From a virus: a stretch of DNA of 46,376 nucleotides. This document shows positions 4,751-26,620 of the stretch, in pieces (the first letter of the stretch is position 1; each line of letters opens with the position of its first letter). Location of the stretch: the IMG/VR virus record IMGVR_UViG_3300045996_000636, positions 1 through 46,376 of that record. One strand, 5' to 3'. A program made the translations under genes and the position numbers. The notes under the pieces are model-generated. The model was given only the letters and a program-made list of their open reading frames with translations, was not told where the DNA came from and ran no database searches.

Positions 4751-5197
4751 ATGAAACTTGTCGCAATCAACGAGAACGGCAAGCGCATGGGTGAAGGCCA
4801 TGGCCGAGCCAAGCTGACCGATCACGATGTCGAGCTCGTGCAGTCGCTGCTCGCGTGCCGCGACATGCTGGTCGACGAGTACGCCAAGCAAGGCCTCGCC
4901 CGCGGCCACATCCACAAGGTGCTGAACGAGCGGCAACTGTCCTACGCGTTCATCGCCGAGAAGTTCGAGGTGTCGAAGAGCCTGATCAAGGCCATCGCCG
5001 ACGGCAAGGTGCGGGCACGCGCGGCCATCGAGTGGAAGCGGGTTGGGGTGAAGACGCCGCGGTCTCACATCGCCGAGCCCGGCCGCGAGTGGGGCCCCGG
5101 CAATTGCAGCAGGCCATCAGGCCCGGGGGTGGGGGGAGGCGTCGCAAACACCTGCATGGCCTGCCTCGGACCGTTCGGGGGGTGCGAGTGCACATAG
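4751..5197 (+). CDS. Helix-turn-helix DNA-binding protein, possible late regulator
   Basis: 148 residues. The N-terminal half follows the GxxHGxAKLTDxDV...IAxxFxVSxxxIxxIxxG pattern of phage and homing-endonuclease-associated HTH proteins. The recognition helix is near FIAEKFEVSKSLIKAIADGK (about 67-86). The C-terminal tail is Gly/Pro-rich and ends in a cysteine cluster, CMACLGPFGGCEC, which may bind metal. It lies between the origin cluster and terS. Its stop codon is inside the first late-promoter-like element (the TAG of CACATAG). That position fits a regulator of late genes or a packaging accessory, but homology does not settle which. Confidence 0.75.
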   Translation: MKLVAINENGKRMGEGHGRAKLTDHDVELVQSLLACRDMLVDEYAKQGLARGHIHKVLNERQLSYAFIAEKFEVSKSLIKAIADGKVRARAAIEWKRVGVKTPRSHIAEPGREWGPGNCSRPSGPGVGGGVANTCMACLGPFGGCECT

Positions 5198-5219
5198 CCT
5201 GCTAAAGGCTCGCTAAATT
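5184..5219 (+). promoter_or_regulatory. Late promoter-like element P1, before terS
   Basis: GAGTGCACATAGC, with GTGCAC at 5188-5193, then TAAATT at 5214-5219: exactly 20 bases between the two boxes, as in the three other copies. TGCTAAA and CGCTAAA half-operators lie inside the spacer and the second box. The terS ATG follows 11 bases after the -10-like box, so a transcript would be almost leaderless. Confidence 0.65.
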
Positions 5220-5229
5220 CGGCCGGGCT

Positions 5230-5994
5230 ATGACCCAGCCAATGCACCCGCGCATGCGGTTCTTTGTGACCGAGTACCTGCGCGACTTCAACGGCCGCCA
5301 AGCGGCCATCCGCGCCGGCTACACCGTCAAGTCGGCGGCCCGCCAGGCGCACGAACTGCTGCAACGAGACGACGTGAAAGCGGCCGTCGATGCTGCCATC
5401 GCCGCTCGAATCGCCGAGACCAAGGTCGAAGCGAACGACGTGCTGCGCATGCTGCTCGACGTGGCGACCGCCGACCCGAACGACGTGCTGCAGGTTCGGC
5501 GCCTGTGCTGCCGGCACTGCTGGGGCAAGGACTTCCGCTACCAGCGCACGGCCGGCGAACTGGCCCGCGACCGCGCCCAGCACCAGCGCGACGAGCTGCG
5601 CCGGCAGAAGGACGCGGACAAGGGCGGCGAGACCGACTACACGCCCACGGCCTTCGACGTGCAGGGCGGTGACGGCTACAACCGGCTCGCCGAGCCGCAT
5701 GACGATTGCCCCGAGTGCTTCGGCGAGGGCGTGCCCGATGTGCACCTGCACGACAGCCGCCTGCTGCAGGGCCCGGCCCGGCGGCTCTACGCCGGCGTGA
5801 AGACCACGCAGAACGGCGTCGAGGTGAAGCTGCGCGATCAGGACAAGGCCGTCGAATTGCTCGGCCGCCACCTGGCGCTGTTCGCTGATCGCGTGGTGGA
5901 CACAGGCGAGGCCGATCTCGCTGCCGCCGTGCTGGCCGCACGCAAGCGCACGAAGGCGGCACCCGAGCCTGAACCCGGCAGCGATCTCTGCTGA
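5230..5994 (+). CDS. terS: Terminase small subunit
   Basis: 254 residues. The N-terminal HTH-like segment (RMRFFVTEYLRDFNGRQAAIRAGY, then SAARQAHELLQRDDV) is the Terminase_2 signature of subunits that recognise the packaging site. A zinc-ribbon-like insertion follows, with CCRHC near 95-99 and CPEC near 160-163, separated by a charged helical stretch. The C-terminus is helical and ends in a Pro/Glu linker, as expected for oligomerisation and large-subunit contact. An in-frame ATG at 5242 is an alternative start. The stop overlaps the terL start (TGATG). It is the first gene after late element P1. Confidence 0.9.
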   Translation: MTQPMHPRMRFFVTEYLRDFNGRQAAIRAGYTVKSAARQAHELLQRDDVKAAVDAAIAARIAETKVEANDVLRMLLDVATADPNDVLQVRRLCCRHCWGKDFRYQRTAGELARDRAQHQRDELRRQKDADKGGETDYTPTAFDVQGGDGYNRLAEPHDDCPECFGEGVPDVHLHDSRLLQGPARRLYAGVKTTQNGVEVKLRDQDKAVELLGRHLALFADRVVDTGEADLAAAVLAARKRTKAAPEPEPGSDLC

Positions 5995-7565
5995 TGAACG
6001 CCGAACTGCAACTCGCCACCGACATCGGCGGCTTCTTCGACGACCCGCTCGGGTTCGTCATGTACGCCTACCCGTGGGACAGCGACCCGAGCATCCAGAT
6101 CGTCGAGCTCGAAAGCCCCTACCGCGAGCGCTTCGGCTGTCGGTTCGGCCCCGACCTGTGGGCCTGTCAGTTCCTCGATTGGCTCGGCACCGAGATCAAG
6201 GCCCGCGGCTTTGATGGTGTGCACGCTGTGGCACCGATCCAGGCCGCGGTGAGCTCGGGCCACGGGATCGGCAAGTCGGCCATGGCCGCGTGGCTCACGC
6301 ACTTCATCATGTCCACACGCCCGCACTCGAAGGGCGTGATCACGGCCAACACCGCCGAGCAGTTGGCCTCGAAGACCTGGGCCGGCGTGAGCGCATGGGT
6401 CAAGCGCTCGGTCAATGCGCACTGGTTCACCATCACGACCGGCAAGGGCGCGATGCGGATGGTGCACAACGACCACCCCGACACGTGGCGCGTGGATGCG
6501 CAGACCAGCCGCGAAGAGAACAGCGAATCGTTCGCCGGCCTGCACGCAGCGAGCAGCACCCCGTGGTATCTGTTCGACGAAGCGTCGGCCATCCCCGCGA
6601 AGATTTGGGAGGTGGCCGAGGGCGGCAAGACCGACGGCGAGCCGATGCACTTCGTGTTCGGCAACCCCACCCGCAACACCGGCGCGTTCGCCGAGTGCTT
6701 CGGCAAGAGCCGCCACCGGTGGAAGACCTGGCAGATCGACAGCCGCAAGGTCAAGATCACCAACAAGGAACTGATCGCCAAGTGGGTCGCCGACTACGGC
6801 GAGGACAGCGACTTCGTGCGGGTGCGCGTGCGCGGCGTCTTCCCGCGGGCCAGCAGCATGCAGTTCATCGGCCGCGACCTCGTCGACGACGCAATGACGC
6901 GCGACATGCACGCCTACAGCCCCTACACCCGCGTCGCGCTGGTCGGCGTGGACGTGGCGCGCTTCGGCGGCGACGACTCGACGATCTACACGCGCATGCA
7001 GCGCGACGCCCGCACCTACCCGCCGAAGTCCTACAACGGGCTCGACACGATGCAGCTCGCCGCCCGCGTGGGCGAGCACATCAACGAACTGAAAGCCCTG
7101 GGCCTGCGCGTCATCGTCTTCGTGGACGGTGGCGGCATCGGGGGTGGGGTGATCGATCGGCTGCGCCAGCTCGGCCACGAGGTGATCGAGGTGAACTTCG
7201 GCGGCAAGCCCGACGACCCGCGCAAGTACAAGGACAAGGCCGCCGAAATGTGGGACCGCGCGAAGGCCTGGCTACCCACCGGCTTCCTGCCTGAGACCGA
7301 CAGCGAATACGCCGAAGTGCTCGCCACCGATCTCACCGGCCGCGAGTACGGCTACACCGACGCCTCGCAGATCGTGCTCGAACGCAAAGAGCACATGAAA
7401 GAGCGCGGGCTCGCGAGCCCCGACCACGGCGACGGCTTCTGCCTGACCTTCGCGCACCCTGCGATGGAACTGGTCGCGCAGCCCGACGACACGCCGGGGC
7501 GCAGTGCACATAGCGCGAGTCGGCGCCAACACAATCCGTTCGATCGCGCCCGCCTTCGGGCCTAA
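5994..7565 (+). CDS. terL: Terminase large subunit (packaging ATPase and nuclease)
   Basis: 523 residues. The ATPase domain has Walker A GHGIGKSA (89-96) and Walker B with catalytic acid WYLFDEAS (191-198). The RNase H-fold nuclease has three acidic sites: VGVDVARFGGDD (D320), VFVDGGG (D378) and DHGDGFCL (D480). It cuts concatemers and drives DNA into the prohead through the portal. The last 20 or so residues (GRSAHSASRRQ...) are unusual because the second late-promoter-like element is embedded in the coding sequence there. The same peptide RSAHSA appears at the end of the Bbp19-like protein for the same reason. Confidence 0.95.
   Translation: MNAELQLATDIGGFFDDPLGFVMYAYPWDSDPSIQIVELESPYRERFGCRFGPDLWACQFLDWLGTEIKARGFDGVHAVAPIQAAVSSGHGIGKSAMAAWLTHFIMSTRPHSKGVITANTAEQLASKTWAGVSAWVKRSVNAHWFTITTGKGAMRMVHNDHPDTWRVDAQTSREENSESFAGLHAASSTPWYLFDEASAIPAKIWEVAEGGKTDGEPMHFVFGNPTRNTGAFAECFGKSRHRWKTWQIDSRKVKITNKELIAKWVADYGEDSDFVRVRVRGVFPRASSMQFIGRDLVDDAMTRDMHAYSPYTRVALVGVDVARFGGDDSTIYTRMQRDARTYPPKSYNGLDTMQLAARVGEHINELKALGLRVIVFVDGGGIGGGVIDRLRQLGHEVIEVNFGGKPDDPRKYKDKAAEMWDRAKAWLPTGFLPETDSEYAEVLATDLTGREYGYTDASQIVLERKEHMKERGLASPDHGDGFCLTFAHPAMELVAQPDDTPGRSAHSASRRQHNPFDRARLRA
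7501..7535 (+). promoter_or_regulatory. Late promoter-like element P2, end of terL
   Basis: GCAGTGCACATAGCGCGA, with GTGCAC at 7504-7509, then CACAAT at 7530-7535, 20 bases between. It lies within the 3' end of terL and would serve the head genes starting at 7582. Confidence 0.65.
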
Positions 7566-7581
7566 TTCCGTCCGCAAAGCC

Positions 7582-7923
7582 ATGTGCCTCGGTGAAGCCG
7601 TTGACAAATTGCCCGGCGCCAAGCCGCCGGGGACCAATAGCAAGTGGGTGCCGACCGTGGGCGAGTCGGTCGATCCGCACTACATGCGCACGAACGCGAA
7701 GGCCGAGGAACGCCACAAGCAGATCGGCGTGCACAAGCCCGGCATTCCCGACCCGCCCGCGCCGCCCAAGGCACCACAAGCGGCCAAGGCCCCGAGCACC
7801 ACGCCGCTGAAGAAGCGCAACCAGTTCGGCGGCTTCGCGGGCAGCGAGACCATGCTCACCGGGTCGAACGGCGTGGACCCTGCGACCCTGAACCTCGGCA
7901 CGTCGAGCCTGCTGGGCGGTTGA
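7582..7923 (+). CDS. Pro-rich MCLG protein 1, upstream of the portal
   Basis: 113 residues from the ATG at 7582. The frame is open to 7504, but that extension only reads through element P2. It starts MCLG and ends ETMLTGSNGVDPATLNLGTSSLLGG. Both ends match the next gene product, so the two are tandem paralogues. The middle is Pro/Ala-rich (IPDPPAPPKAPQAAKAP) and followed by a basic KKRN patch, with no predicted globular core. Small proteins with an MC-G start, a Pro-rich middle and a TxLTG...LLG end commonly lie just upstream of head-tail connector portals in podophages. Their role is unknown but probably structural or in assembly. Confidence 0.8.
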   Translation: MCLGEAVDKLPGAKPPGTNSKWVPTVGESVDPHYMRTNAKAEERHKQIGVHKPGIPDPPAPPKAPQAAKAPSTTPLKKRNQFGGFAGSETMLTGSNGVDPATLNLGTSSLLGG

Positions 7924-7925
7924 CC

Positions 7926-8147
7926 ATGTGCCTCGGCGGTTCTGACATCCCCAACGCGCCGGCACCACCGCCGCCACCCCAGGCGGCCAAGGCACCGGAC
8001 ACCGCACCGCTCAAGCGGCGCAACACGGGCGGCAGCGGTTTCGCGCCGGCCCAGGGCTCGACGATGTTGACCGGTGCGACCGGCATCACGACCGCGCAGC
8101 TCAACCTCGGCGCCTCGTCGCTGCTGGGCGAAGGAACACCAGCATGA
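7926..8147 (+). CDS. Pro-rich MCLG protein 2, paralogue of the upstream gene
   Basis: 73 residues starting MCLGG two bases after the upstream stop. It keeps the same plan in shorter form: MCLG, a poly-Pro segment (APAPPPPPQAAKAP), a basic KRRN patch, then GSTMLTGATGI and LNLGASSLLG. Compared with its neighbour it lacks the insert between the MCLG start and the Pro-rich region (about 40 residues). The last codons (GTPA) are part of the 21-bp coupling repeat shared with 883-903. The second-position Cys invites thoughts of lipid or disulfide use, but there is no signal peptide. Confidence 0.8.
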   Translation: MCLGGSDIPNAPAPPPPPQAAKAPDTAPLKRRNTGGSGFAPAQGSTMLTGATGITTAQLNLGASSLLGEGTPA

Positions 8148-8151
8148 ACGA
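8131..8151 (+). repeat. 21-bp translation-start repeat, copy 2
   Basis: Identical to 883-903: Shine-Dalgarno AAGGAA, ATGA overlap and the first codons of the next gene. Confidence 0.85.
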
Positions 8152-8338
8152 AATCAGCATCGGCGACGCAGTGATCCCGCGAGACGAGCCCGACCACGAC
8201 GTGATGACCGTCTACGACTTGAAGAACAACTACAACGAGGCGGATTGCAATTGGGTGATCGGCACCACCATGTTCAAGCGGCGGATCGCAATTCGCGAAC
8301 TGATCCGCCTTGAGCGCAAGCCACGCAAGGCCGCTTGA
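8144..8338 (+). CDS. Small conserved-looking protein before the portal
   Basis: 64 residues, translationally coupled by ATGA to the upstream gene through the 21-bp repeat. It looks like a small beta-rich domain (ISIGDAVIPRDEPDHDVMTVYDL... then FKRRIAIRELIRLERKP) of the kind that binds via a charged surface. There is no membrane segment and no recognised family. Its place between the MCLG pair and the portal gene suggests a head-assembly accessory, by context only. Confidence 0.7.
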   Translation: MNEISIGDAVIPRDEPDHDVMTVYDLKNNYNEADCNWVIGTTMFKRRIAIRELIRLERKPRKAA

Positions 8339-8340
8339 CC

Positions 8341-10062
8341 ATGATGCAGAACCACCACGACCCCAAGACCCCGCAGCAGCGCATGCTGCAGCGGAAGACC
8401 TCGCTGTGGAACGACCGCAGCAGCTACGACTCGCACGCGCAGGACATCGCCGATTTCTTGCTGCCGCGTGCGCTGCGCCTGCACGAGTCCGATCGCAACA
8501 AGGGCGGCACCGACGCCTACAACTCGATCATCGACGAGACCGGCACGCTCGCTCACGGCGTGCTCGAAGCGGGCCTCATGGCCGGCCTGACCAGCCCGGC
8601 CCGGCCGTGGGTGAAGCTCGCAACGCCTGACCGCGACCTGATGGAGTACGCACCGGTCAAGCAGTGGTGCAGCAAGGTCACGACGAAGATGCTGCAAATC
8701 TTCGCGAAGTCGAACAGCTACCGCGCGTTCCGCAGCACCTACGGCCAGCTCGGCGGCTTCGGCATCGGCGCGAACATCGTGGTCGACAACTACCAGAACG
8801 TGCTGCACAACTACCCGCTCGCGTTCGGCTCGTATGCGATCGGCCTGAACTACCTGGGTCAGACCGACACGATCTACCGCGTGATGCAGAAGACGGTGGG
8901 CCAGCTCGTCGCCGAGTTCGGCTACGAGAACTGTTCGCAGACCGTGCGCAACATGTGGGACAAGTTCAACTACGACGCCCCAGTGCCGGTGCTGCACGGA
9001 ATCGAGCCGCGGCGCGACCGCAACTACGGCAAGCTCGATTCGAAGAACATGGCCTTCAAGTCGTGCTACCTCGAAATGGGGCGCGACGGCGAACAGCAGT
9101 ACCTGCGCGAATCGGGCTTCAAGGAATTCCCCGCGGTGTGCCCGCGCTGGCTGGTCGATGGTGACGACACCTACGCCTCGCGCTGGCCGGCGGCCGTGGC
9201 GCTGGGTTCGATCAAGCAACTGCAGCAGGAGCAACTGAAGAAGAGCACGGCCATCGACTATCAAGTCGAGCCGCCGCTGCAGGTGCCCGTGGCCTACAAG
9301 AACCAAGACCTCGACCGCCTGCCGGGCGGGGTCATGTACGTCGACACGAACACACAGACCGGCGGCATCCGCAGCGCGTTCGAGGTGAACCTGAACCTGC
9401 AGCACCTGCTGCTCGACATCCAAGACGTGCGCGACCGCATCAACAAGGCGTTCTTCGTCGACCTGTTCAAGATGCTGGCGAACGACACGCGGTCGAACGT
9501 GACGGCCCGCGAGATCGCCGAGCGGCACGAAGAAAAGCTCCTGATGCTGGGCCCGGTGCTCGAATCGCTGCACACCGAGATGCTGCAGCCCTTCGTCGAG
9601 ATCACCTTCGCCAAGATGATGCGGGCCGGCCTGTTCGCACCTGGCATGCCGTTGGAGCCGCCGCAGGAACTGCACGGCCAAGACCTCGACATCGAGTTCA
9701 TCAGCACGCTCGCGCAAGCGCAGCGCGCGGTGGGCGTCTCGTCGATCGACCGCTACGTCGGCACGATCGCGTCGGTCTCTTCGATCAAGCCCGGGATTCT
9801 CGACAAGCTCGACGAGGACCAGCTCGCCGACGTGTATGCCGACGCGCTGGGCGTCGACCCCTCGCTCGTGGTGGCCGACGACAAGATCGCGCTCATCCGC
9901 GACAAGCGGGCGAAGGCCGAGCAGGCGGCGCAGATGGCCGCGCTCGCACCGGCCATGAAGGACATGGCGTCGGCCACCAAGGACTTGAGCCAGGCCGACC
10001 CCGAAGGCATCCAGAACGCCGCATCTGCCTTCAGCGGCTACAGCATCCCGGGGATGGAATGA
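8341..10062 (+). CDS. Portal / head-tail connector protein
   Basis: 573 residues from the first of two adjacent ATGs. It matches the podoviral head-to-tail connecting protein family (T7 gp8-like, PF12236 type): an N-terminal helix with RKTSLWNDRSSYDSHAQDIADFLLPR, LMAGLTSPARPWVKL, a long beta/alpha wing (LDRLPGGVMYVDT), and the conserved stem FEVNLNLQHLLLDIQDVRDRINKAFF with TAREIAERHEEKLLMLGPVLESL. The dodecameric ring would sit at one capsid vertex, pass DNA during packaging and bind the gp11-like adaptor. The C-terminal 60 residues are Ala/Lys-rich helix, as usual. The stop overlaps the start of a 20-codon ORF. Confidence 0.93.
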   Translation: MMQNHHDPKTPQQRMLQRKTSLWNDRSSYDSHAQDIADFLLPRALRLHESDRNKGGTDAYNSIIDETGTLAHGVLEAGLMAGLTSPARPWVKLATPDRDLMEYAPVKQWCSKVTTKMLQIFAKSNSYRAFRSTYGQLGGFGIGANIVVDNYQNVLHNYPLAFGSYAIGLNYLGQTDTIYRVMQKTVGQLVAEFGYENCSQTVRNMWDKFNYDAPVPVLHGIEPRRDRNYGKLDSKNMAFKSCYLEMGRDGEQQYLRESGFKEFPAVCPRWLVDGDDTYASRWPAAVALGSIKQLQQEQLKKSTAIDYQVEPPLQVPVAYKNQDLDRLPGGVMYVDTNTQTGGIRSAFEVNLNLQHLLLDIQDVRDRINKAFFVDLFKMLANDTRSNVTAREIAERHEEKLLMLGPVLESLHTEMLQPFVEITFAKMMRAGLFAPGMPLEPPQELHGQDLDIEFISTLAQAQRAVGVSSIDRYVGTIASVSSIKPGILDKLDEDQLADVYADALGVDPSLVVADDKIALIRDKRAKAEQAAQMAALAPAMKDMASATKDLSQADPEGIQNAASAFSGYSIPGME

Positions 10063-10121
10063 GACTCGCCTTCGCCATCGGGTTCGTGCTCGCCGTCGCG
10101 AGCTGCGCGGTGCTGCTGTGA
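10059..10121 (+). CDS. 20-residue hydrophobic micro-ORF between portal and Bbp19-like gene
   Basis: ATG at 10059 overlaps the portal stop (ATGA), and its own stop overlaps the next start (GTGA at 10118-10121), so it is coupled on both sides with no free base. The peptide is one basic residue after Met, then an uninterrupted hydrophobic run, FAIGFVLAVASCAVLL, long enough to span a membrane. It contains a lipobox-like VASC. It may encode a tiny membrane peptide. It may equally serve only to carry ribosomes from the portal gene to the next start. Confidence 0.5.
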   Translation: MRLAFAIGFVLAVASCAVLL

Positions 10122-10453
10122 GCGACTACAACCCGCTCGACCCGGCGCAGCGCGCCGACGCGAAAGAGCAGCAGGCCAAGCGCCAGCAGTTCGAGGCCGA
10201 GCAGTTGGCCGCTGACACGCAGTGGCTGATGGCCGACCCGCGTGGCCGGCGCCTCATGCGCCGCTGGCTCGCCCTGTGCCACGTCGATCACAGCACGTTC
10301 ACGGGCAACAGCACCGGCATGTTCAAGGAAGGCGAGCGCAACGTCGGCCTGCAACTCAAAGGCCAGGTGACCGAGTTCGCCTTCGAGGACTACGTCGTCA
10401 TGCTGCGCGAGATGCAGCCGACGCCACGCAGTGCACATAGCGCGAAGAAGTGA
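10118..10453 (+). CDS. Bbp19-like head protein
   Basis: 111 residues from a GTG that overlaps the upstream micro-ORF stop. The charged N-terminal helix is followed by the conserved core of the BPP-1 Bbp19 family: ADPRGRRLMRRWLALCHVDHSTFTG, then FKEGERNVGLQLKGQV and YVVMLREMQ. Bbp19 relatives lie between portal and scaffold genes in BPP-1-like podoviruses and are thought to be virion or assembly proteins. The last residues (RSAHSAKK) come from the embedded late element P3. Confidence 0.85.
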   Translation: MSDYNPLDPAQRADAKEQQAKRQQFEAEQLAADTQWLMADPRGRRLMRRWLALCHVDHSTFTGNSTGMFKEGERNVGLQLKGQVTEFAFEDYVVMLREMQPTPRSAHSAKK

Positions 10454-10462
10454 CCACAGAAT
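10428..10462 (+). promoter_or_regulatory. Late promoter-like element P3, before scaffold and capsid
   Basis: GCAGTGCACATAGCGCGA, with GTGCAC at 10431-10436, then CAGAAT at 10457-10462, 20 bases between. The first 18 bases are identical to P2. It lies across the end of the Bbp19-like gene and would boost the capsid block. The ATG at 10471 is only 8 bases past the second box. Confidence 0.65.
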
Positions 10463-11199
10463 CCGCCGCCATGGACACCACGTCTACCGAATCTCTGCTC
10501 ACCGCCGGCGCACAAGACACCACTGCCGCGGCCACGGGTGATCAGGCGAACGCCGACGCGACGAAAACCGCGGACGGTGCTGCGAGCACTGACGCTGCCA
10601 AGACCGAGGACGGCAAGACCGACCCGGGCAAGGACGCGGCAGCGGACGGTGACAAGGGCAAGCCCGATGCGGCTAAGGACGACGGGAAGAAGGACGGCGA
10701 CAAGCCGGCCGGCGCACCCGACACCTACGCCGACTTCGCGATGCCCGAGGGCTACGAGCTCGACGCCGAACTGCTCGGCGAGTTCACGCCCGTGCTGAAG
10801 GAATTGAACCTGCCGCAAGAGGCTGCGCAGAAGGTCATCGACTTCGCGCCCAAGCTGATCGAGAAGACCGTCGCGACCACGCAGGCGGCCGTGCTCGAAG
10901 GGCTGGGCCTGAAGGACGCGGGCACCTGGGCCGCCGCCGTGAAGGCTGACAAGGAAATCGGCGGCGAGAAGCTGACCGAAAACCTCGGCATCGCGAACAA
11001 GGCACTCGGTCAGTTCTTCAGCAAGGACGCCATCGCAGCACTGCAAAAGGTCGGGCTGGGCAACCACCCCGAACTGATCCGCGGATTGATCAAGGTCGGC
11101 AAGGCTGTCAGCGAGGACGGGTTCGTGCCAGGCGGCAGGAACACGACCACTGAGAGCTCCGCGACTCGTCTTTTCGACAAGTCGAACATGAACCCGTGA
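10450..11199 (+). CDS. Scaffolding protein
   Basis: 249 residues from the GTG at 10450 (GTGA overlap with the upstream stop). An in-frame ATG at 10471 is the alternative and may be the one used from P3 transcripts. The first 90 residues are a low-complexity Ala/Thr/Asp/Lys chain. The ordered part (APDTYADFAMPEGYELDAELLGEFTPVLKELNLPQEAAQKVIDF...) is the usual phage scaffold core, followed by helices and a C-terminal end with SATRLFDKSNMNP. It would direct assembly of the capsid protein encoded 18 bases downstream and leave before or during packaging. Confidence 0.9.
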   Translation: MTTESAAMDTTSTESLLTAGAQDTTAAATGDQANADATKTADGAASTDAAKTEDGKTDPGKDAAADGDKGKPDAAKDDGKKDGDKPAGAPDTYADFAMPEGYELDAELLGEFTPVLKELNLPQEAAQKVIDFAPKLIEKTVATTQAAVLEGLGLKDAGTWAAAVKADKEIGGEKLTENLGIANKALGQFFSKDAIAALQKVGLGNHPELIRGLIKVGKAVSEDGFVPGGRNTTTESSATRLFDKSNMNP

Positions 11200-11217
11200 A
11201 CTGAAAGGCCCTGAAAA

Positions 11218-12216
11218 ATGGCAACCCTCGCCGCAACCCATCCGACCCTGCTCGACCTGAAGTCGCGTCTCGACGCGAACAACAAGGTCATCCCGGTGAT
11301 CGAAATGCTGTCGCAGACGAACGAAATCCTCGACGACGCCGTGTGGCTCGAAGCCAACGAGCTGACCGGCCACACCACCAGCGTGCGCACCGGCATCCCC
11401 GAGCCGACCTTCCGCAAGCTCTACGGTGGTGTGCAGCCGACCAAGAGCACCAGCGTGAAGGTCCGCGAAGGCCTGGGCATGCTGGAGAACTACGCCGAGG
11501 TCGACAAGGCCCTGGCCGACCTGAACGGCAACAGCGCCGCGTGGCGCCTGTCCGAAGAGTCGGCGATCGTGGAAGGCTTCGGCCAGAAGCTGGCCCGCTA
11601 CATGATCTACGGCAACGAGGCGACCGAGCCCGAAGGCTTCACCGGCCTGGCCCCGCGCTTCAACGACCAGTCGGCGGTGAACGGCGAGAACATCCTGACC
11701 TCGGCCGCCACCCCCGACAGCACCGACAACACGTCGCTGTGGGTCGTGGGCTGGGGTCCGAACACCTGCCACATGATCTACCCGAAGGGCTCGCAGGCCG
11801 GCCTGAAGATCGAGGACAAGGGCCAGGTCACGATCGAGAACGTGGACGGCGCCGGCGGCCGGATGGAAGCCTACCGCTCCCACTACAAGTGGGACTGCGG
11901 CATGGTGGTGCGTGACTGGCGCTACGTGGTCCGCATCAACTTCGACCTCGAAGACGTGGTCGCCTCGGGCGCCACCGGCCCCGTGCTGCGCGACATGCTG
12001 GCGAAGGCGATGCGCCGCATCCCGAACCTGAACATGTGCCGCCCGGCCATCTACATGAACCGCGACGCGCTCGACGCGTTCGACCTGCAGATGAACCGTG
12101 ACCCGCTGCTGCAGTTCAAGACGCAGGAAGAGGCGCAAGGCAAGTTCGTCACCCGCTTCCGCGGTGTGCCGATCCGCCGTGTCGACCAGATTCTGAGCAC
12201 CGAGTCGGGCATCTGA
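11218..12216 (+). CDS. Major capsid protein, BPP-1 type
   Basis: 332 residues with a good Shine-Dalgarno (GAAAGG). It starts directly with the N-terminal arm (MATLAATHPTLLDLKSRLDANNK), without the long delta domain of HK97 itself. Typical features are NEILDDAVWLEANELTGHTTSVRTGIPEPTFRKLYGG, the E-loop region with SVKVREGLGMLENYAEVDKALADLN, and the C-terminal FRGVPIRRVDQILSTESG. This is the BPP-1/Bbp17-like class of HK97-fold shell proteins. The position between scaffold and a Bbp16-like cement protein supports it. A terminator 0.8 kb downstream would keep capsid-block mRNA more abundant than tail mRNA. Confidence 0.93.
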   Translation: MATLAATHPTLLDLKSRLDANNKVIPVIEMLSQTNEILDDAVWLEANELTGHTTSVRTGIPEPTFRKLYGGVQPTKSTSVKVREGLGMLENYAEVDKALADLNGNSAAWRLSEESAIVEGFGQKLARYMIYGNEATEPEGFTGLAPRFNDQSAVNGENILTSAATPDSTDNTSLWVVGWGPNTCHMIYPKGSQAGLKIEDKGQVTIENVDGAGGRMEAYRSHYKWDCGMVVRDWRYVVRINFDLEDVVASGATGPVLRDMLAKAMRRIPNLNMCRPAIYMNRDALDAFDLQMNRDPLLQFKTQEEAQGKFVTRFRGVPIRRVDQILSTESGI

Positions 12217-12248
12217 GCCGGCTGACCCGAACGAAAGGAAAAGACATC

Positions 12249-13003: not shown

Positions 13004-13027
13004 TCCCCAGCCCACCACGACCGACAC

Positions 13028-18549: not shown

Positions 18550-20189
18550 TGCCGCGCGTCCCGACCGTCGACGGACCGAGCGTCGCGCTGAACCCAGCGC
18601 CGAACGCGTATCAGTCCACGCCGAGCGCCCTGGGCGGCGCCGGCGAGGTGCGTGCCCGCCAGTTCGGTCAGGCCGCGCAGGCCGGCGGCCAGGTGGTCGC
18701 CGAAATGCAGCGCCAGCAGAACCGCGACGACCTCGACGCGGTGTTTCGCGCCGAGACCGCGCTCAAGGACGACTACCTCAAGTTCGAGCGCGACGAGCTC
18801 GGCAAGAACGGCGAGAACGCCAAGGGCGCGAGCGAGCGCTCGGGCGCGTGGTGGGGCGAGGCCGAGAAGAAATACACCGAGGGCCTGACCGAGCGCCAGG
18901 CCCATGCGTTCCGCCGCAGCGCGACGCAGATGCGCCTCGCGAGCAAGAGCACGCTGGGCCGCCACGAGCAGCACCAATCCGAGATCGCCCTGCGCGAGTC
19001 GGCGCAGGCGCGCGTGGGCACGGCCATCAGCACCGCCACCGCGGACCCGACGCCCGAACGCCTGGGCCTTGCCCGCAAGGAAATCACCGAGGCCGTGGGT
19101 ATCTCGTCGAAGATGGCCGGCGATGCGCCTGAGGTGACCGAGCGCAAGCTGTCCGAAGCCATGACGCTCATGCACCGCAACGTGGTGATGAAGCTGGCCG
19201 ACAGCGACCCCGACGCGGCCAAGGCCCACTACTACGCCAACAAGAAAGAGATCAACGGCGAGACCCGCCTCGTGCTGGAGAAGACGCTCGAAACGAGCGG
19301 CCGGCTGCAGAAGGCGCAGGAAGCGGCCGACGGTCTGGTGCTGAAGTTCGGCGACGACCTGGCCGCCGCGATGAAGCACATCGAGGACAACTACAGCGGC
19401 GAGACCGAGAAGGCGGTCAAGGACGAATTCACGCAGCGCTACACGCGCGTGAAGGGCGCGAAGCAGCAGATGTCGCAGACGGCCTACGAGACCGCGCTGC
19501 TCGCCACCGTGCAGGGCCAGCGCGTACCGGCCGCCGTGTGGGCGCAGATGGACGACGGCCACAAGGCCGCGATCATCGAGAAGCGCGAGGCCGAAGAGAA
19601 GGCCCGCCGCCTGGCCGCCCAAGGCAAGGCAATCAAGACCGACTTCACCACCTGGGACAAGATCAACCGGATGGCGACCGACGACCCCAAGGCGTTCGTC
19701 GCGTTCGACCTCGGCCGCGTGGCCGATCGGGTGTCGAGCGGCGACCTGCAGGAGTTCGGCAACCTGCAGCGCCGGCTGCGCAGCGGCGACGACAAGGCGC
19801 AGAAAGAGGTCGTGAGCGTCAGCCAGCAGGTCGACGTGGCGCTCGACAGCCTGAGCCTGCGGCCGAACACGCCTGACCAGGCCGCGGCCCGCAAGGCGAT
19901 CTACGACGCGCTCACCGCCGAGCAGGCCGGCCGCGACAACAAGACGCCGCTCACCTACGACGAGCGGCAGAAGGTGATCGACCGGCAGATTCTGAAGGCC
20001 GTGTCGAGCCCCGGCATGGTGTGGGACACGACGAAGCGCGTGTACCAGATGACGCCCGAGGAACGCGCGAAGGCCGAGCCGACGAGCGAGGACCGCAAGG
20101 TGCTGGTCGAGCGCTTCAAGAAAGCCGGCGTCGCGAAGCCCACCGACGACCAGATCAACGAAGCATTCCGCCGCTGGAAAGGCCTGTGA
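18549..20189 (+). CDS. Internal core protein, T7 gp15-like
   Basis: 546 residues from the ATG at 18549. Almost entirely alpha-helical and highly charged, without membrane segments or Cys, as in gp15-type ejection proteins that line the DNA channel in the periplasm. Recognisable stretches are the extended N-terminal PRVPTVDGPSVALNPAPNAYQS, a helical AYYA-type repeat region with DSDPDAAKAHYYANKKEINGETR (like tetratricopeptide spacing), and the C-terminal DRKVLVERFKKAGVAKPTDDQINEAFRRWKGL. Coupled to the giant protein by TGATG. Assignment rests on order, size and composition more than on any single motif. Confidence 0.8.
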   Translation: MPRVPTVDGPSVALNPAPNAYQSTPSALGGAGEVRARQFGQAAQAGGQVVAEMQRQQNRDDLDAVFRAETALKDDYLKFERDELGKNGENAKGASERSGAWWGEAEKKYTEGLTERQAHAFRRSATQMRLASKSTLGRHEQHQSEIALRESAQARVGTAISTATADPTPERLGLARKEITEAVGISSKMAGDAPEVTERKLSEAMTLMHRNVVMKLADSDPDAAKAHYYANKKEINGETRLVLEKTLETSGRLQKAQEAADGLVLKFGDDLAAAMKHIEDNYSGETEKAVKDEFTQRYTRVKGAKQQMSQTAYETALLATVQGQRVPAAVWAQMDDGHKAAIIEKREAEEKARRLAAQGKAIKTDFTTWDKINRMATDDPKAFVAFDLGRVADRVSSGDLQEFGNLQRRLRSGDDKAQKEVVSVSQQVDVALDSLSLRPNTPDQAAARKAIYDALTAEQAGRDNKTPLTYDERQKVIDRQILKAVSSPGMVWDTTKRVYQMTPEERAKAEPTSEDRKVLVERFKKAGVAKPTDDQINEAFRRWKGL

Positions 20190-23100
20190 TGGACGAGCTC
20201 GACAGCGCGATCGAGCAGACGCTCAAGACCGCCGACAAGGCGCGCATGAGCGCAACCGCTGCCGACCCGCTGGGCGACGCGGTCGATCAGGTCGTGAGCA
20301 TCGACAAGGTGCGCCGGCAGGCGTCGCTGCGCAGCGCCGTGCAGGTGAACCCGGACGAGGCCGCGCAGGCGAACAAGCTGGCCGCCTCGCGCGGCCTGCC
20401 GCCCGACGTGGTGCTGCGCAACCTGCAGCAGGTCAAGCAGGACGACGCCGCCGAGCGCGCCAACAAGATCATGGGCTTGTCGCCCGCGCTCGCCACGAAG
20501 ATGCGAGACCTGCCGTTCGCACAGGTGGCCCACGACAGCGTCGAAAGCCTGGGCGCCATCGAGTCGCACATCCGCGTGACGGGCGAAATCCGCGCAGCTC
20601 GCGGCCCGGACCCGACGCTTGGCTCGTACCTGACCGGCGTGTGGGAAAGCGTGAAGGGCCGCGCCAAGCAGGCCGACATCGGCATCTCGCTGCAGATCGG
20701 CGACCTGGCCGAGAAGTTGGGCTTCGCGCCCGACCCGGTGCGCCGCGGCGAACTGATCCGCCGCTACCAGCAGGCCGGCTCGAACGTCGACATGTCGACA
20801 CCCGAGTTCAAGAGCGACACCGCCAAGGGCATCTACGGCGGCGTGTCGTCCACGGCCAGCATGGTCGCACCGACCGCGCTGTCGATCCTGATGCGCAATC
20901 CGACGCCGGCCATGGCCGCGATGGGTGTGCAGGTCGAGGCCGAGGCCTATGGCAAGTACCGCAGCCGCGGCGCGACCCCTGGCGAGGCGCTGGTCGGCGG
21001 CGTGGCCGAGGGCGCCGTCGAAGTGCTGACCGAGAAAATCCCGATGGGGTTCATCGTGCAGAAGTTCGGCAAGGGCGGCGCAAAGGAATTCCTCGCCGGC
21101 ATGCTGATGCGCGAGGTGCCGAGCGAGCAGGTCGCGACCTTCCTGCAGGACGCCATCGACACCGCCATCGCGAACCCTGACAAGACGTGGGGCGAGTTCT
21201 GGAAAGAACGGCCGAGCGCCGCCTATCAGACCCTGATGGCGACGCTCACGCAGGCGAGCATCATGGGCGGCGCGAGCGCCACCGTGCAGAAGATCGCCCA
21301 GCGGGCCGAGCGCAAGCAACTGCAGACCGAGCAGGACACCAATGCCTTGCAGGGCCTGCTCGACCTGGCCGGCAAGGACAAACTGCGCGAGCGCGACCCC
21401 AACGCCTTCGCGTCGATGGTGCAGGCCGCGGCCGAGCAGCACGGCATGCCGGGCGAGGTCTACATCGACGCCGGCAAGCTGGCCGAAACGCTCGCGCAGT
21501 CGGGCATGAAGCCCGAGCAGATCGAGGCGGCGCTTCCGAGCGCGCGTGCCCAGCTCATGGAAGCGGTTGCCGCCGGCGGCGACGTGGTGGTGCCGATCGG
21601 CGAGTTCACGTCGCTCGTGGCCGGCAGCGGCTTCGAGCAGCAACTCGTGAAGCACGCCCGCCTGTCGCCCGACGCGCTGAGCCAGGAAGACGCGAAGCTC
21701 TTGGCGAAGGTCGACCTCAAGGCCGAGACCGAGAAGGTGATGGCGCAGCAGGCCCAGGTCGCCGAAGGGCAGGCTGTCAAGGCGCAGGTGCTGGAGCAAC
21801 TGAACACCGCCGGCCGCTTCTCGCCGGCCGTCAATGAGGCCTACGCCGACAGCGTGGCCGCGCTCTACGAGACCCAGGCCGCACGCCTGGGCATCCCCGT
21901 CGCGGAGTTCGCGAAGCGCTACCCGCTGAACGTGACCGGCGTGCTCGGGTCGGCGGCCAAACTCGACCAGCCGGCCTATCACGGCACCCATGTCCGGGGG
22001 ATTGAGCAGTTCACCACGCAGAAGATGGGCACCGGCGAGGGCGCCCAGGCTTTCGGCTGGGGCATGTACTTCGCCAAGGCAAAACAGATTGCCGAGTTCT
22101 ACCGCGAGAGCATCACCCGCATGCACCGCGCGGACAACCCGGAGTTCGCGGCGGCGCGTCACACGCTCGCTAATGAGCTAGGCGCGGTCGACTTCCTGGG
22201 CTTCGACCGCTGGCAGGACGCCTACGCCGCGCTCAAGCAGGACGGGTACGACACCGACGGGTTGACCCCGGAGCAACTGCAGCGCATTCGCGCGGCAATC
22301 GCCGAGTACGACCGCACGAACAAGGACACGAGCACCGGCCAACTCTACGAGGTCGATGTCCCTGAAGACAGCGACCTGCTCGACTACGACGCGCCGCTGA
22401 AGGAGCAGCCCGAGAAGGTGCGCAAGGCTCTCGAATCGCTCGGCTTCAAGGCTGAGGTCTATGCGGCCATCGCGCCGGACGGCAAGACCATCGCCACCGA
22501 CGAAGACGCCGGCCGGCTGCGGCGCATGGTCAAGGCGAACAATCATGACGTGAAGACGATCAAGTCGGTGCCGAACCCGATCACCGGCAAGCAGATTTAC
22601 TACGAACTGGAGCAGCGCCGCGACCTGCCCGGCGTGCCGGGTTCCGCCGACATGGCGGCCGACGAAGCGGCCAGCCGCGCGCTGTTCGCCGCAGGTATCC
22701 CCGGCCTGCGCTTCCTCGACGCCGGATCGCGCGGCGCGCAGGCGCAGGGCAAGACGCACAACTACGTGATCTTCGACGACTCGGCGGTGCAAAAGACCGG
22801 CGAGTTCTATCAAGAGCAGGGCGACTCGAAAGGCACGTTCACCCCGAACACCAACACGATCGCGCTGCTCGCGAAGGCCGACCTGTCGACCTTCCACCAC
22901 GAACTCGGGCACTTCTACCTCGAAGTGCTGGCCGACATGGCCGCGCAGCCCGACGCGCCGGCCGCCGTGGTCGAGGACATGAACAAGGTGCTCGAATGGT
23001 TCGGCGTGCCCGACCTCGCCGCCTGGCGCGCCATGTCGCTCGACCAGCAGCGCGAATTCCACGAGAAATTCGCCCGCGGCTACGAGGCCTACCTGTTCGA

Positions 23101-26100
23101 GGGCAAGGCCCCGAGCACTGCGCTGTCGCGCACGTTCCAGCGCTTCAGCGAGTGGATGCGCCGTATCTACCGCAGCATCAAAGCGCTGAACGTCGAACTG
23201 AACGACGACATCCGCCGCGTCTATGACCGCATGCTCGCGAGCGAGGAAGCGATCAAGGAAGCCGAGACAGCCCGCGCCTACGCGCCGCTGTTCAAGGATG
23301 AGAAAGCCCTCGAAGAGGCCGGCGTCGACCCGGCCAGCTACCACGCCCTCGGCAGTGAGGCCACCGCTGAAGCGATCGACCGCTTGCAAGAGCGAAGCAT
23401 CCGCGACATGCGGTGGCTGTCGAACGCAAAGGGCCGTGCACTGAAGGCACTGCAGAAGGAAGCCGCGGCCACCCGTAAGGGCGTCGAGGCGCAGGTGCGC
23501 GAGGAAGTGAACGCGCGGCCCGAGTACCGTGCCGCCGACCTGATCGCCGAAGCCGACAAGACGTTCGCCGCTGACCCGACCGCGGCCGACCCCGGCCTGC
23601 AGCGCGCCGCCATCGCCGATGCGCTGGGCTTCTCGTCGATCGACAGCATGGCGCGGGCGATCGAAGAAGCGCCGCCGCGGGCCGAGATCATCGAAGGCAT
23701 GACCGATCAGCGCATGCTCGAAGAGCACGGCGAACTGTCGAGCCCCGACGCGCTCGAACGCGCCGCCGAGCAGGCCATCCACAACGAGGCCCGCGGCAAA
23801 TTCATCGCGACCGAACTGGCCGCGCTCGACAAGGCCCTCGGCCCGGCCCGCGTGCTGGTGGCCGCGGCCAAGCAGTTCGCGACCGCCGTGCTCGGCCGCA
23901 AGCAGATCACCGACATCAAGCCACACGTCTTCACGGCGGCAGAGACCCGCGCCGCGAAGCTGGCCGAGAAGTCGCTCGGCAAGGTGGAAGAGGCGGCCAC
24001 CGCGAAGCGCAACCAACTGCTGAACCACTACGCCGCCCGCTACGCGCACGACGCCGTGGCCGAGATCGCACGCATCCGCGAGTTCTTCGCCCGCGTGGCG
24101 AACACTCCCGACGACCGGCTGAAGAGCCGCGACATGGATGTCGTGAACGCGGCCCGGGCTGTGCTGGCCGCCTACGGCGTCGGCCGGCGCGGCGAGGCCG
24201 CGGCCGACTACCTGAAGAAGGTTGCGGCCTACGACCCCGACATGAGCCAGGTGCTGCAGGCGTCCGTCGACGCCGCGCTCGCCAACGCGAAGCCCCTGGC
24301 CGAGCTCACGCTCGACGAGCTGCGCGCCCTGAACGACGAGGTCGCGAGCCTGTGGCACCTGGCGAAGCGCAGCCGGCAGATGGAGATCGACGGCGACCTG
24401 CTCGACCGCGAAGAGGTGCAGGACCAGCTCAAGGCCCGGATCGACGACATCGGCGTGCCGCTGCGCATCCCCGGCGAGGGCAGCGCTGTCACGCCGGCCG
24501 AGGCCCGCCTCGCCAAACTGAAGACCTATCTCGCCAGCGCCCGCCGCACCGAGGGCTGGGTCGAGGCCATGGACGGCAAGCCGAGCGGCGTGTTCCGCTC
24601 GTTCATCTGGCAACCGGTCAAGGAAGCGGCCGACGCCTACCGCACCGACAAGGCCCGTCTGCTCAAGCAGTACCGCGCGCTGCTCGATGCAATTGCGCCG
24701 ACCTTCCGCAAGCGGATCGTCGACGCACCCGAGCTCGGCTACACCTTCGGCAAGGACACGGGCGGCGTCGCGCTGAACGAAATCCTGCACGCGCTGCTGC
24801 ACACCGGCAACGCGAGCAACAAGAAAAAACTGCTGCTCGGCCGCAAGTGGGCGACCGAGAACATCGACGGCACGCTCGACACGAGCCGGTGGGACGCGTT
24901 CGTGCAGCGCATGGTCGACGAGGGTGTGCTCACGAAGGCGCACTTCGATTTCGTGCAAGGGGTGTGGGACCTTCTCGAAGAGACCAAGCCGCTCGCGCAG
25001 AAGACCCACCGCGACGTGTTCGGCAAATACTTCGCCGAGATCACCGCCGAACCGGTCGCCACGCCGTTCGGCGAGTACCGCGGCGGCTACGTGCCGGCGC
25101 AGGCCGACCCGCGCGTCGTGAGCGATGCGAAGACCCGCACGCTGATGGAAGAGGAAAACGCTTCCATGGCGTTCGCCTTCCCATCCACGAACCGCGGGTT
25201 CACCAAGGGTCGCGTCGAGTACAACCGCCCGCTGACGCTCGACCTGGGCACGCTCGCCCAGCACATCGACCGCGTGCTGCTGTTCGCCCACATGGAACGA
25301 CCCATTCGCGACGTGCGCCGCGTGCTCACGAGCAAGGGCGTCGCCTACGGCGTGAACCGCATCGACCCGGCGGCCTTCGACGCGATCATCAGCCCGTGGC
25401 TGAACCGCGCCGCGCGCCAGCAGGTGACGACGCCGTCGCCCGGCCACTGGCAGTCGTGGCGCCTGTGGTCGACCCTGCGCAACCGCGCCGGCATGGCCGC
25501 GATGTTCGGCAACGTCGTGAACGCCGCGCAGCAGATCACTGGCTTCAGCATCGCCGCGGTGAAGGTGAAGCCGAAGTACCTGCTCGGCGCGATGGGGCAC
25601 TACGTCACGAACCCGCGCCAGATGGCGCAGGACGTGGCCGAGGCCTCGCCCTACATGGAAGGGCGCATGCGCAACGAGGTTGCGGCGATGAACGACGCGA
25701 TCAAAGACATCCTGATCGACCCGAGCCTCTACGAGCGCGGCCAGCAGTGGACGATGCGCCACGCCTATTTCATGCAGTCGGCGGTCGACAACGTGATGTC
25801 CCCGATCATCTGGACCGCCGCGCGCAACCAGGCGCTTGAGCAGGGCCAGAGCGAGAAGGAAGCTACCCGCTTCGCTGACGCCACCGTGCGCCAGACGCAG
25901 GGCTCGACGCTGCCCGAAGACATCAGCAATTGGGAAGCGGGCAGCAGCTTCAGCCGCATGTTCAGCCAGTTCGCCGGCTACTTCAACATGCAGGCGAACC
26001 TGCTGGGCACCGAGTTCCAGACCATCGCGCGCGACATGGGCGTGCGCAAGGGCGCCGGCCGAGGCCTCTACGTCACGCTGATGGCGTTCCTGATCCCGGC

Positions 26101-26572
26101 GTGGACGAGCGAGCTGATCGTGCAGGCCTTCCGCGGTGGCCCGGAAGACGAGGACAAGGACGGCGAATACCTCGACGACTGGCTCGCGGCCGTGTTCGGC
26201 ATGGCGACGCTGCGCGGCGTGACGGCCATGGTGCCGATCTTCGGCCAGGGGATGAACGCGATCCCCAACGCGCTGAACGACAAGCCCTACGATGACCGGC
26301 TCGCCACGAGCCCGGCTATCAGCATGATCGAGGCGGCCGTCAAGTCGCCGGTGTCGGTCTACAAGGCGCTCTTCGAGGACGGCGACAAGTCGAAGGCCGT
26401 GAAGGACGTGGCGAGCCTGATCAGCCTGACGACCGGCATTCCCGCCAACATCGCCGCCCGGCCGGCGTCCTACATGCTGGACGTGGCCGAGGGGGACGTG
26501 CAGCCCACCGGGCCCGTGGACGCAGCTCGCGGCGCGGTGACGGGTCGCGCGAGCCCGGATAGCAAACGCTAA
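20189..26572 (+). CDS. Giant ejection protein with ART-like and zinc-metallopeptidase domains (polyvalent type)
   Basis: 2127 residues, the largest gene, in the gp16 position. N-terminal 590: helical, with TALSILMRNPTPAMAAMGVQVEAEAYGKYRSRGATPGEAL and an EKIPMGF segment. Residues about 594-875: an ADP-ribosyltransferase-like domain of the polyvalent-protein class (YHGTHVRGIEQF at 597, FGWGMYFAKAKQIAEFY near 625, closing GLRFLDAG and NYVIFDD). Residues about 900-1010: a zincin domain with HELGH at 904-908. Middle: long coiled helices. The C-terminal 500 have RTQG-type helices and hydrophobic stretches (LYVTLMAFLIPAWTSELIV), probably for the inner-membrane channel. I see no lysozyme-like transglycosylase motif. 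Injected ART and peptidase domains may act on host proteins at the moment of entry. Confidence 0.85.
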   Translation: MDELDSAIEQTLKTADKARMSATAADPLGDAVDQVVSIDKVRRQASLRSAVQVNPDEAAQANKLAASRGLPPDVVLRNLQQVKQDDAAERANKIMGLSPALATKMRDLPFAQVAHDSVESLGAIESHIRVTGEIRAARGPDPTLGSYLTGVWESVKGRAKQADIGISLQIGDLAEKLGFAPDPVRRGELIRRYQQAGSNVDMSTPEFKSDTAKGIYGGVSSTASMVAPTALSILMRNPTPAMAAMGVQVEAEAYGKYRSRGATPGEALVGGVAEGAVEVLTEKIPMGFIVQKFGKGGAKEFLAGMLMREVPSEQVATFLQDAIDTAIANPDKTWGEFWKERPSAAYQTLMATLTQASIMGGASATVQKIAQRAERKQLQTEQDTNALQGLLDLAGKDKLRERDPNAFASMVQAAAEQHGMPGEVYIDAGKLAETLAQSGMKPEQIEAALPSARAQLMEAVAAGGDVVVPIGEFTSLVAGSGFEQQLVKHARLSPDALSQEDAKLLAKVDLKAETEKVMAQQAQVAEGQAVKAQVLEQLNTAGRFSPAVNEAYADSVAALYETQAARLGIPVAEFAKRYPLNVTGVLGSAAKLDQPAYHGTHVRGIEQFTTQKMGTGEGAQAFGWGMYFAKAKQIAEFYRESITRMHRADNPEFAAARHTLANELGAVDFLGFDRWQDAYAALKQDGYDTDGLTPEQLQRIRAAIAEYDRTNKDTSTGQLYEVDVPEDSDLLDYDAPLKEQPEKVRKALESLGFKAEVYAAIAPDGKTIATDEDAGRLRRMVKANNHDVKTIKSVPNPITGKQIYYELEQRRDLPGVPGSADMAADEAASRALFAAGIPGLRFLDAGSRGAQAQGKTHNYVIFDDSAVQKTGEFYQEQGDSKGTFTPNTNTIALLAKADLSTFHHELGHFYLEVLADMAAQPDAPAAVVEDMNKVLEWFGVPDLAAWRAMSLDQQREFHEKFARGYEAYLFEGKAPSTALSRTFQRFSEWMRRIYRSIKALNVELNDDIRRVYDRMLASEEAIKEAETARAYAPLFKDEKALEEAGVDPASYHALGSEATAEAIDRLQERSIRDMRWLSNAKGRALKALQKEAAATRKGVEAQVREEVNARPEYRAADLIAEADKTFAADPTAADPGLQRAAIADALGFSSIDSMARAIEEAPPRAEIIEGMTDQRMLEEHGELSSPDALERAAEQAIHNEARGKFIATELAALDKALGPARVLVAAAKQFATAVLGRKQITDIKPHVFTAAETRAAKLAEKSLGKVEEAATAKRNQLLNHYAARYAHDAVAEIARIREFFARVANTPDDRLKSRDMDVVNAARAVLAAYGVGRRGEAAADYLKKVAAYDPDMSQVLQASVDAALANAKPLAELTLDELRALNDEVASLWHLAKRSRQMEIDGDLLDREEVQDQLKARIDDIGVPLRIPGEGSAVTPAEARLAKLKTYLASARRTEGWVEAMDGKPSGVFRSFIWQPVKEAADAYRTDKARLLKQYRALLDAIAPTFRKRIVDAPELGYTFGKDTGGVALNEILHALLHTGNASNKKKLLLGRKWATENIDGTLDTSRWDAFVQRMVDEGVLTKAHFDFVQGVWDLLEETKPLAQKTHRDVFGKYFAEITAEPVATPFGEYRGGYVPAQADPRVVSDAKTRTLMEEENASMAFAFPSTNRGFTKGRVEYNRPLTLDLGTLAQHIDRVLLFAHMERPIRDVRRVLTSKGVAYGVNRIDPAAFDAIISPWLNRAARQQVTTPSPGHWQSWRLWSTLRNRAGMAAMFGNVVNAAQQITGFSIAAVKVKPKYLLGAMGHYVTNPRQMAQDVAEASPYMEGRMRNEVAAMNDAIKDILIDPSLYERGQQWTMRHAYFMQSAVDNVMSPIIWTAARNQALEQGQSEKEATRFADATVRQTQGSTLPEDISNWEAGSSFSRMFSQFAGYFNMQANLLGTEFQTIARDMGVRKGAGRGLYVTLMAFLIPAWTSELIVQAFRGGPEDEDKDGEYLDDWLAAVFGMATLRGVTAMVPIFGQGMNAIPNALNDKPYDDRLATSPAISMIEAAVKSPVSVYKALFEDGDKSKAVKDVASLISLTTGIPANIAARPASYMLDVAEGDVQPTGPVDAARGAVTGRASPDSKR

Positions 26573-26586
26573 AAGCCCGCTTAGCG
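26567..26586. other. Small hairpin at the end of the giant gene
   Basis: CGCTAA (26567-26572) and TTAGCG (26581-26586) form a 6-bp inverted repeat around an 8-base loop, with the stop TAA in the left arm. There is no T tract, so termination is doubtful. The right arm runs directly into late element P4. Confidence 0.5.
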
Positions 26587-26620
26587 CAGTGCACATAGCG
26601 GGGGCCTGAGCCCACAGAAT
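26586..26620 (+). promoter_or_regulatory. Late promoter-like element P4, before the tail fibre
   Basis: GCAGTGCACATAGCG, with GTGCAC at 26589-26594, then CAGAAT at 26615-26620, 20 bases between. This is the only copy in a true intergenic gap. The tail-fibre ATG is 25 bases after the second box. The following GGCAGC...GCTGCC is a short hairpin before the start. Confidence 0.7.

Follow-up and report, generated by a model that had tools for sequence, protein, structure and literature searches.

Why should one short sequence word recur at four gene boundaries of a phage genome, always on the same strand and always at the same distance from a second motif, and what might read it? The question is raised by a viral stretch of 46,376 nucleotides (nt), positions 1 to 46,376 of IMG/VR record IMGVR_UViG_3300045996_000636 (hereafter "the window", meaning the whole of that stretch), in which the repeated elements stand before or among the genes for packaging, head and tail fiber. 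The explanation that best fits the evidence given below, and one that we consider very probably correct, is that the elements are late promoters whose word is read by a small helix-turn-helix (HTH) protein, encoded directly upstream of the small terminase gene, acting as an activator of the host sigma70 polymerase.

Exact matches to AGTGCACATAGC occur four times in the window (at 5187, 7503, 10430 and 26588), four on the plus strand and none on the minus, and in all four copies a hexamer (TAAATT, CACAAT, CAGAAT and CAGAAT, respectively) begins exactly 20 nt past GTGCAC. If this hexamer is set at -12 to -7, the predicted transcription start (+1) falls 7 nt past its last base. The elements and the genes beside them are:

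4751-5197, plus strand: candidate activator, an HTH protein of the GExHPxAKLTD type and homologue of Bbp27 (148 residues; conserved over about residues 1-102; recognition helix 76-84).
5187-5219, plus strand: element A, with the word AGTGCACATAG at 5187-5197, a 16-nt spacer and the -10 hexamer TAAATT at 5214-5219; the TAG stop of the HTH gene lies inside the word, the predicted +1 is at about 5226 and the terS ATG (5230) is at about +5.
5230-5994, plus strand: terS (small terminase), the first gene past element A (PHROG 51, E 1.2e-38).
7503-7535, plus strand: element B, within the 3' end of terL, with its word at 7503-7513 and the -10 hexamer CACAAT at 7530-7535; predicted +1 at about 7542, the next ATG (7582, about +41) opening a frame of 113 residues.
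10430-10462, plus strand: element C, at the 3' end of gene 10118-10453, with its word at 10430-10440 and the -10 hexamer CAGAAT at 10457-10462; predicted +1 at about 10469, so that the in-frame ATG of the scaffold/protease gene (10471) is at about +3 and its mRNA is predicted to be leaderless.
10471-11199, plus strand: scaffold/protease-type gene (PHROG 458, E 1.2e-59), with its putative start as revised here.
26588-26620, plus strand: element E, in the gap before the tail-fiber gene, with its word at 26588-26598 and the -10 hexamer CAGAAT at 26615-26620; predicted +1 at about 26627, the fiber ATG (26646) at about +20.

The start that the list of open reading frames gives for the scaffold/protease gene, a GTG at 10450, lies upstream of the -10 of its promoter, and the ATG at 10471 is thus the better choice.

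Among the repeated 10-mers of the window, AGTGCACATA is the most strongly over-represented, with four copies observed and 0.009 expected. For the 11-mer GTGCACATAGC with at most one mismatch, shuffled sequences gave an expectation of 0.66 on both strands together and reached four in one of 100 shuffles, a count that disregards the exactness of the copies, their confinement to one strand and the -10. Allowing up to two mismatches and requiring a -10 brought no extra copy on the plus strand; the minus strand has one weak match with two mismatches. A preliminary description, made from the letters of the window, had listed these four plus-strand copies and their hexamers, and its coordinates, strand and spacing all hold; it had also pointed out that the elements intrude on coding sequence, and they do. 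Copies 2 and 3 are translated as RSAHSA, the former where terL ends and the latter where gene 10118-10453 does; copy 1 forms the ...ECT-stop of gene 4751-5197, and copy 4 is intergenic. The late genes seldom use the codons that the element forces (AGT makes up 2% of the codons for Ser, GCA 6% of those for Ala, CAT 9% for His and AAT 7% for Asn), with the qualification that the CACAAT at the end of terL also codes for part of the conserved [HY][DN]P[FY] C-terminus of that protein.

For comparison, 55 viral loci with related capsid genes were collected. Four contigs close to the window carry its own word in the same places. Other relatives do not have that word, and in many of them the same boundaries between late genes are marked by repeats of a word peculiar to the phage; in BPP-1-like podoviruses these boundaries are the position before terS, the end of terL, the position before the scaffold block, the tail genes and the position before the fiber. 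Because the relatives use other words, a scan of IMG/VR with the window's word returned mostly chance matches beyond its close relatives. A de novo search for the pattern of an 11-nt word, 16 nt and xAxxxT, with the repeat counts corrected for composition (without which GC-rich words dominate), recovered on the late strand only CGTGTCCTTGA five times (G004), CGTGGCCTTGA five times (G009) and four times, CGTACCCTTGA four times (G011; five times by a further count), CGTACGCGCGA six times, one of them a variant (G005), CGTATGCGCGA four times (G002), xGTGCACATAC four times, and others. Two isolated phages have such an element: Bordetella phage BPP-1 (GGTGCCCGTGC, four copies) and Limnohabitans phage DC33 (GGTACCCGTAT, four copies). 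The BPP-1 copies lie between bbp27 and terS, just past terL, past bbp20, and between bbp10 and the fiber gene bbp9, which are the same four boundaries as in the window. Across phages the words share GT at positions 2-3, and C mostly stands at position 7, giving a consensus of about sGTRnnCnTRn. In phiV10, Tyrion, BcepC6B, Shamal and PfDIW6, which share the capsid family and are without the HTH protein, no such element was found.

Two observations on single relatives may be added. In locus L064 the terL gene (3803-4936) encodes a protein about 31% identical to that of the window, yet over the final 40 nt of the gene, element B included, the two hardly differ, as though an exchange of terminase had to retain the matching late promoter. 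Phage DC33 (L156, PQ492659) is classed among the Inoviridae; both its capsid protein and the arrangement of its genes are of the tailed-podovirus kind.

Since the -10 had been part of the search filter, discovery was rerun without it. In seven genomes treated in this way the word ranks first or second among repeated 10-mers, and xAxxxT, with the A at position 2 and the T at position 6 that a sigma70-type -10 requires, stands at the exact offset in 30 of 32 word copies; one more has a spacer longer by 1 nt. The -10 composition is T53 A99 n A56 A42 T99, the A and T being due in part to the filter. When the search was anchored at HTH genes, word scores above 8 occurred in 17 of 80 loci on the late strand and in none of 80 on the other, and words were called in 56 of 139 HTH loci, against 1 of 139 in a free-seed control on the reverse strand. 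The word spans -39 to -29, with its center at about -34, and so occupies the place of the -35, where there is no resemblance to TTGACA (spacer 16-18): mean matches were 1.45, as against 2.30 at random positions. This anatomy is that of putative late promoters of the phage.

The position of the downstream genes points the same way. An ATG opening a frame of at least 60 codons begins at predicted +1, +2 and +3 in 21, 17 and 10 of 106 sites, respectively; at random positions such an ATG is met within an 11-nt range 7.4% of the time. Counted over 110 sites, an ATG stands at predicted +1 to +3 in 50, as against 1 to 6 at neighboring offsets. As the ATG was never used in the choice of sites, this phasing is independent support both for promoters and for the predicted start point, and it makes it almost certain that the elements are promoters, many of them leaderless. 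It is strongest at terS, where 22 of 23 elements have an ATG at predicted +1 to +5 and the Shine-Dalgarno score equals background; at sites with a leader the Shine-Dalgarno scores are higher than at terS. About half of all sites thus look leaderless. The GenBank starts of the BPP-1 genes bbp24 (24092) and bbp19 (20708) coincide with predicted ATGs. In the same record (L150) the annotated start of bbp26/terS (26318) lies upstream of the predicted promoter; an ATG in the same frame, at 26255, agrees with the predicted transcription start, and its use would shift the beginning of bbp26 by 63 nt downstream.

What, then, reads the word? The gene directly upstream of terS encodes an HTH protein in the window, in BPP-1 (Bbp27) and in those other records with elements whose length permits a decision, and these proteins have in common the motif NExGxRxGExHPxAKLTD in addition to the HTH. 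Their relatives in named genomes are mostly from Betaproteobacteria. In an AlphaFold2 model of the product of 4751-5197 (mean pLDDT 81) the helices are 24-46, 51-60, 65-72 and 76-84; a scan of HTH families gave matches to HTH_38, HTH_23 and the resolvase HTH, and none to a MotA-type family. Bbp27 is annotated as an HNH endonuclease, an assignment that the family scans do not support: it has 78 residues and no HNH match, its best Pfam match is HTH_38 (below cut-off), and its PHROG matches span just the DNA-binding end of endonucleases.

The bearing of this protein on the word was examined in 36 non-redundant pairs of protein and word (4 of the 36 words having been assigned by hand). Among informative pairs of columns, word position 6 and HTH residue 81 have the highest mutual information (0.86 bits), with an excess of 0.60 as compared with 0.25 for the next best column. 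Residue 81 is basic in 18 of 19 pairs with C at that position and in 3 of 17 with other bases (Fisher 3e-6; p=0.003 when the association is confined to 18 sequences less than 55% identical), and it is D solely with G (5 of 8, as against 0 of 28). Word position 4 pairs best with residue 75, at the start of the same recognition helix. Over whole proteins, the distance between words tracks that between HTH proteins and not that between terL proteins, but it tracks portal distance too; because this last correlation confounds a whole-protein distance test, the question was put at the level of residues and at matched divergence, among pairs 45-62% identical outside the helix. There the class of residue 81 differs in 90% of pairs with a different base 6 and in 18% of those with the same base, a difference of 0.72, whereas the next best column gives 0.30. 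The residue-81 rule also agreed in the Caulobacter phage Jess A, for which no word had previously been called: residue 81 is D, and the word GGTGCGCATGA occurs three times on the late strand and never on the other. In that phage (L153) the words lie at 6452, 22526 and 42744 of the reverse complement, and the hexamers at the -10 place are GATACA, TAAATAt and TAAAAAt. Loci recovered by a looser search agree in part (L285 D/G, L194 D/G and L283 R/C; L269 has S/G).

As the word changes in step with the adjoining HTH protein, that protein is the likely factor acting on the elements, and as the two diverge together each phage would have its own late code. The promoter would consist of two parts, the 11-nt word at about -39 to -29 and, 16 nt further on, a sigma70-type -10 (TAnAnT). 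The HTH protein (4751-5197; Bbp27 in BPP-1) most likely binds the word by its recognition helix and, once bound, would bring or hold the host sigma70 RNA polymerase, standing in for recognition of a -35; the packaging, head, tail and fiber genes would thereby be switched on. Transcription from the terS element, and often from that of the scaffold block, would start at the AUG or within a few bases of it and yield a leaderless mRNA. The start point is, in this scheme, a prediction from sequence comparison, and so are the direct contact of protein and word, a positive and not a negative effect on transcription, and the part played by host sigma70.

Several observations weigh against it. The strict caller gave no word in 83 of the 139 HTH loci, many of them short fragments; a looser search recovered words at some of these (11, as against 3 in the control), and some HTH homologues may do something else. 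The figure of 107/108 is partly circular, because its seed clusters used the -10 filter, whereas the filter-free count is clean. The residue code has exceptions (K with G in L256, N with C in L204, and two cases of R with A). The -10 of Jess A is poorly formed, perhaps through a different spacing or -10 preference in Caulobacter. Compared with the PDB by Foldseek, the AlphaFold2 model had no confident match. Finally, word distance has a partial correlation of 0.33 with portal-protein distance and, after correction, a weak one of 0.14 (p=0.018) with HTH distance, which suggests that lineage explains part of the whole-protein signal.

Covariation reveals contact and not the sign of regulation, and the HTH protein could in principle be a repressor that sits on the word and shuts off the late genes for as long as it is present, their activation being the work of another factor. 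The word does overlap the -35 place, where repressors often sit, and the HTH gene stands at the end of the preceding block. A repressible promoter would, however, be expected to have a self-sufficient sigma70 -35, which no copy has, and no other regulator gene common to the element-bearing phages was found; we regard repression as unlikely.

A shade less probable still is that another phage factor, a sigma or an RNA polymerase, reads the promoters and that the HTH protein covaries with the word by linkage only, a view to which the correlation of word and portal distances lends some color. Linkage would not, however, single out residues 81 and 75 of the recognition helix at matched divergence, and the -10 keeps the A and T that are conserved in sigma70 promoters of the host. 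Nor do the candidates recur. A weak match to sigma region 2 was obtained in just 2 of 12 element-bearing records, and a T7-type RNA polymerase (PF00940) in none of the 12, the T7 positive control being found; promoters of the T7 type are thereby excluded, and those of a phage sigma are improbable. The sigma matches include the window's own gene 36262-36720 (minus strand), whose product resembles sigma region 2 (PF04542, E 0.005, below cut-off) and has a weak match to an extracytoplasmic function (ECF) sigma in the PDB; it is possibly a sigma-like regulator of another gene set. Antitermination of the lambda Q kind, with a Q gene and a single late promoter, does not suit several elements per genome; Q is annotated in Shamal and PfDIW6, both of which are without elements.

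The preliminary description had put forward two products as the factor: that of 4751-5197, which co-occurrence and covariation favor, and that of 36262-36720, which is set aside as a common factor, its homologue being present only in the close relative G001 among the records compared. Otherwise its interpretation was essentially right. The -35 region is indeed not of sigma-70 consensus, the conservation at the same gene boundaries in relatives on which it had staked its case was found, and the proposal of a late promoter class needing a phage factor is supported, as far as comparison of sequences can predict promoter function. Beyond its view lay the variation of the word from phage to phage and the apparent lack of a leader at about half of the sites.

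That the elements are instead module-boundary sequences retained for recombination between mosaic phages seems very improbable: they do lie at module boundaries, and the L064 terminase, diverged except at its 3' end, is what such a view would lead one to expect, but a fixed -10, an ATG at +1 to +3, confinement to one strand, phage-specific words and covariation with the HTH protein would all be unexpected of linkers. Chance repeats combined with coding constraint are scarcely credible, for although coding sequence holds two of the copies and the -10 at terL also specifies a conserved motif of the C-terminus, the repeat count far exceeds its expectation, the forced codons are rare, and relatives have the same layout, with other words, in the same places.

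Activator-dependent late promoters of this kind have partial parallels. In T4 middle promoters the -10 is kept and the -35 is replaced by a box, centered near -30, for the phage activator MotA (PMC6755090). The arrangement proposed here is like MotA/AsiA in having the box of a small phage activator in place of the -35 with the -10 retained; it is unlike it in serving late genes, in the position of the word (-39 to -29) and in a box that varies between phages. Moreover, the protein has a single HTH of the GExHPxAKLTD type, whereas MotA is a double wing, and no AsiA-like partner was identified here, no search aimed at AsiA having been made. In Gram-positive phages a small regulator of the RinA/Ltr type, encoded just upstream of terS, switches on the late genes (PMC13123087). 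The encoding of a small protein directly upstream of a late promoter and terS is shared with that system; the differences are that the promoters are dispersed and number four to six, where RinA/Ltr phages have one, that one word in the -35 place stands instead of direct repeats upstream, and that the hosts are mostly Betaproteobacteria. The late activator families of PHROG were matched by 1 of 37 members of the HTH family. In P2 (Ogr/Delta) and Mu (C), too, a small protein of the phage activates more than one late promoter in concert with the host sigma70 polymerase, but their sites lie further upstream or are inverted repeats and the proteins belong to other families. The small phage protein and the several late promoters are the points of likeness, the comparison being made here by family scans only. 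As in region 4 of sigma70, an HTH would contact DNA at the -35 place, and a few family members match Sigma70_r4 or r4_2 weakly; unlike in sigma70, these matches are below the curated cut-offs, there is no region 2, and other HTH families match more members. The leaderless mRNA of lambda cI, made from PRM with its AUG at the transcription start, differs from the present case, in which such mRNAs are predicted for packaging and scaffold genes, from activator-dependent late promoters and throughout a group of phages.

The elements would thus appear to represent a new form of activator-dependent late promoter in phages, by sequence family neither that of T4 MotA nor that of RinA/Ltr; in the open-access literature on BPP-1, Bbp27, Rauchvirus, epsilon15 and late promoters we found no description of it. 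A broader formulation, namely that a family of stand-alone region-4-like proteins replaces -35 recognition at every late promoter, with a readable residue-base code that has diversified across BPP-1-like phages and with many leaderless late mRNAs, is tentative, and we think it somewhat doubtful in that full extent. The activator scheme nonetheless provides a testable account of how late genes are controlled in the BPP-1 group, to which the model phage for diversity-generating retroelements belongs. One BPP-1 element (at about 6185 of the record) lies directly upstream of the block bbp9-mtd-avd-TR-brt, its predicted +1 falling about 22 nt ahead of the bbp9 start, and in the published studies consulted the retroelement genes were expressed from substitute promoters; if the scheme is true, the BPP-1 switch would also drive this fiber-mtd-avd-TR-brt block, hence tropism switching. 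The naturally diverged pairs of word and protein would form a set for decoding how small HTH proteins read DNA and for building mutually insulated phage promoters, and leaderless terS mRNA, as predicted across the whole phage group, would be unusual in Proteobacteria.

As to the phage itself, its products match PHROG families for primase/helicase, terS, terL, head-tail adaptor, scaffold/protease, major head protein and tail proteins. A megablast of the whole window against phages gave no match; its head protein is 50-53% identical to the homologues of Bordetella phage BPP-1 and Burkholderia phage BcepC6B. The window ends in an exact direct terminal repeat of 83 bp (1-83 = 46294-46376), which probably means either that the record circularizes, at 46,293 bp, or that its ends are redundant. 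Acb3, a counter-defence protein that inhibits CBASS, is strongly matched (PF25187, E 5.5e-38) by the product of 40640-41296 on the minus strand.

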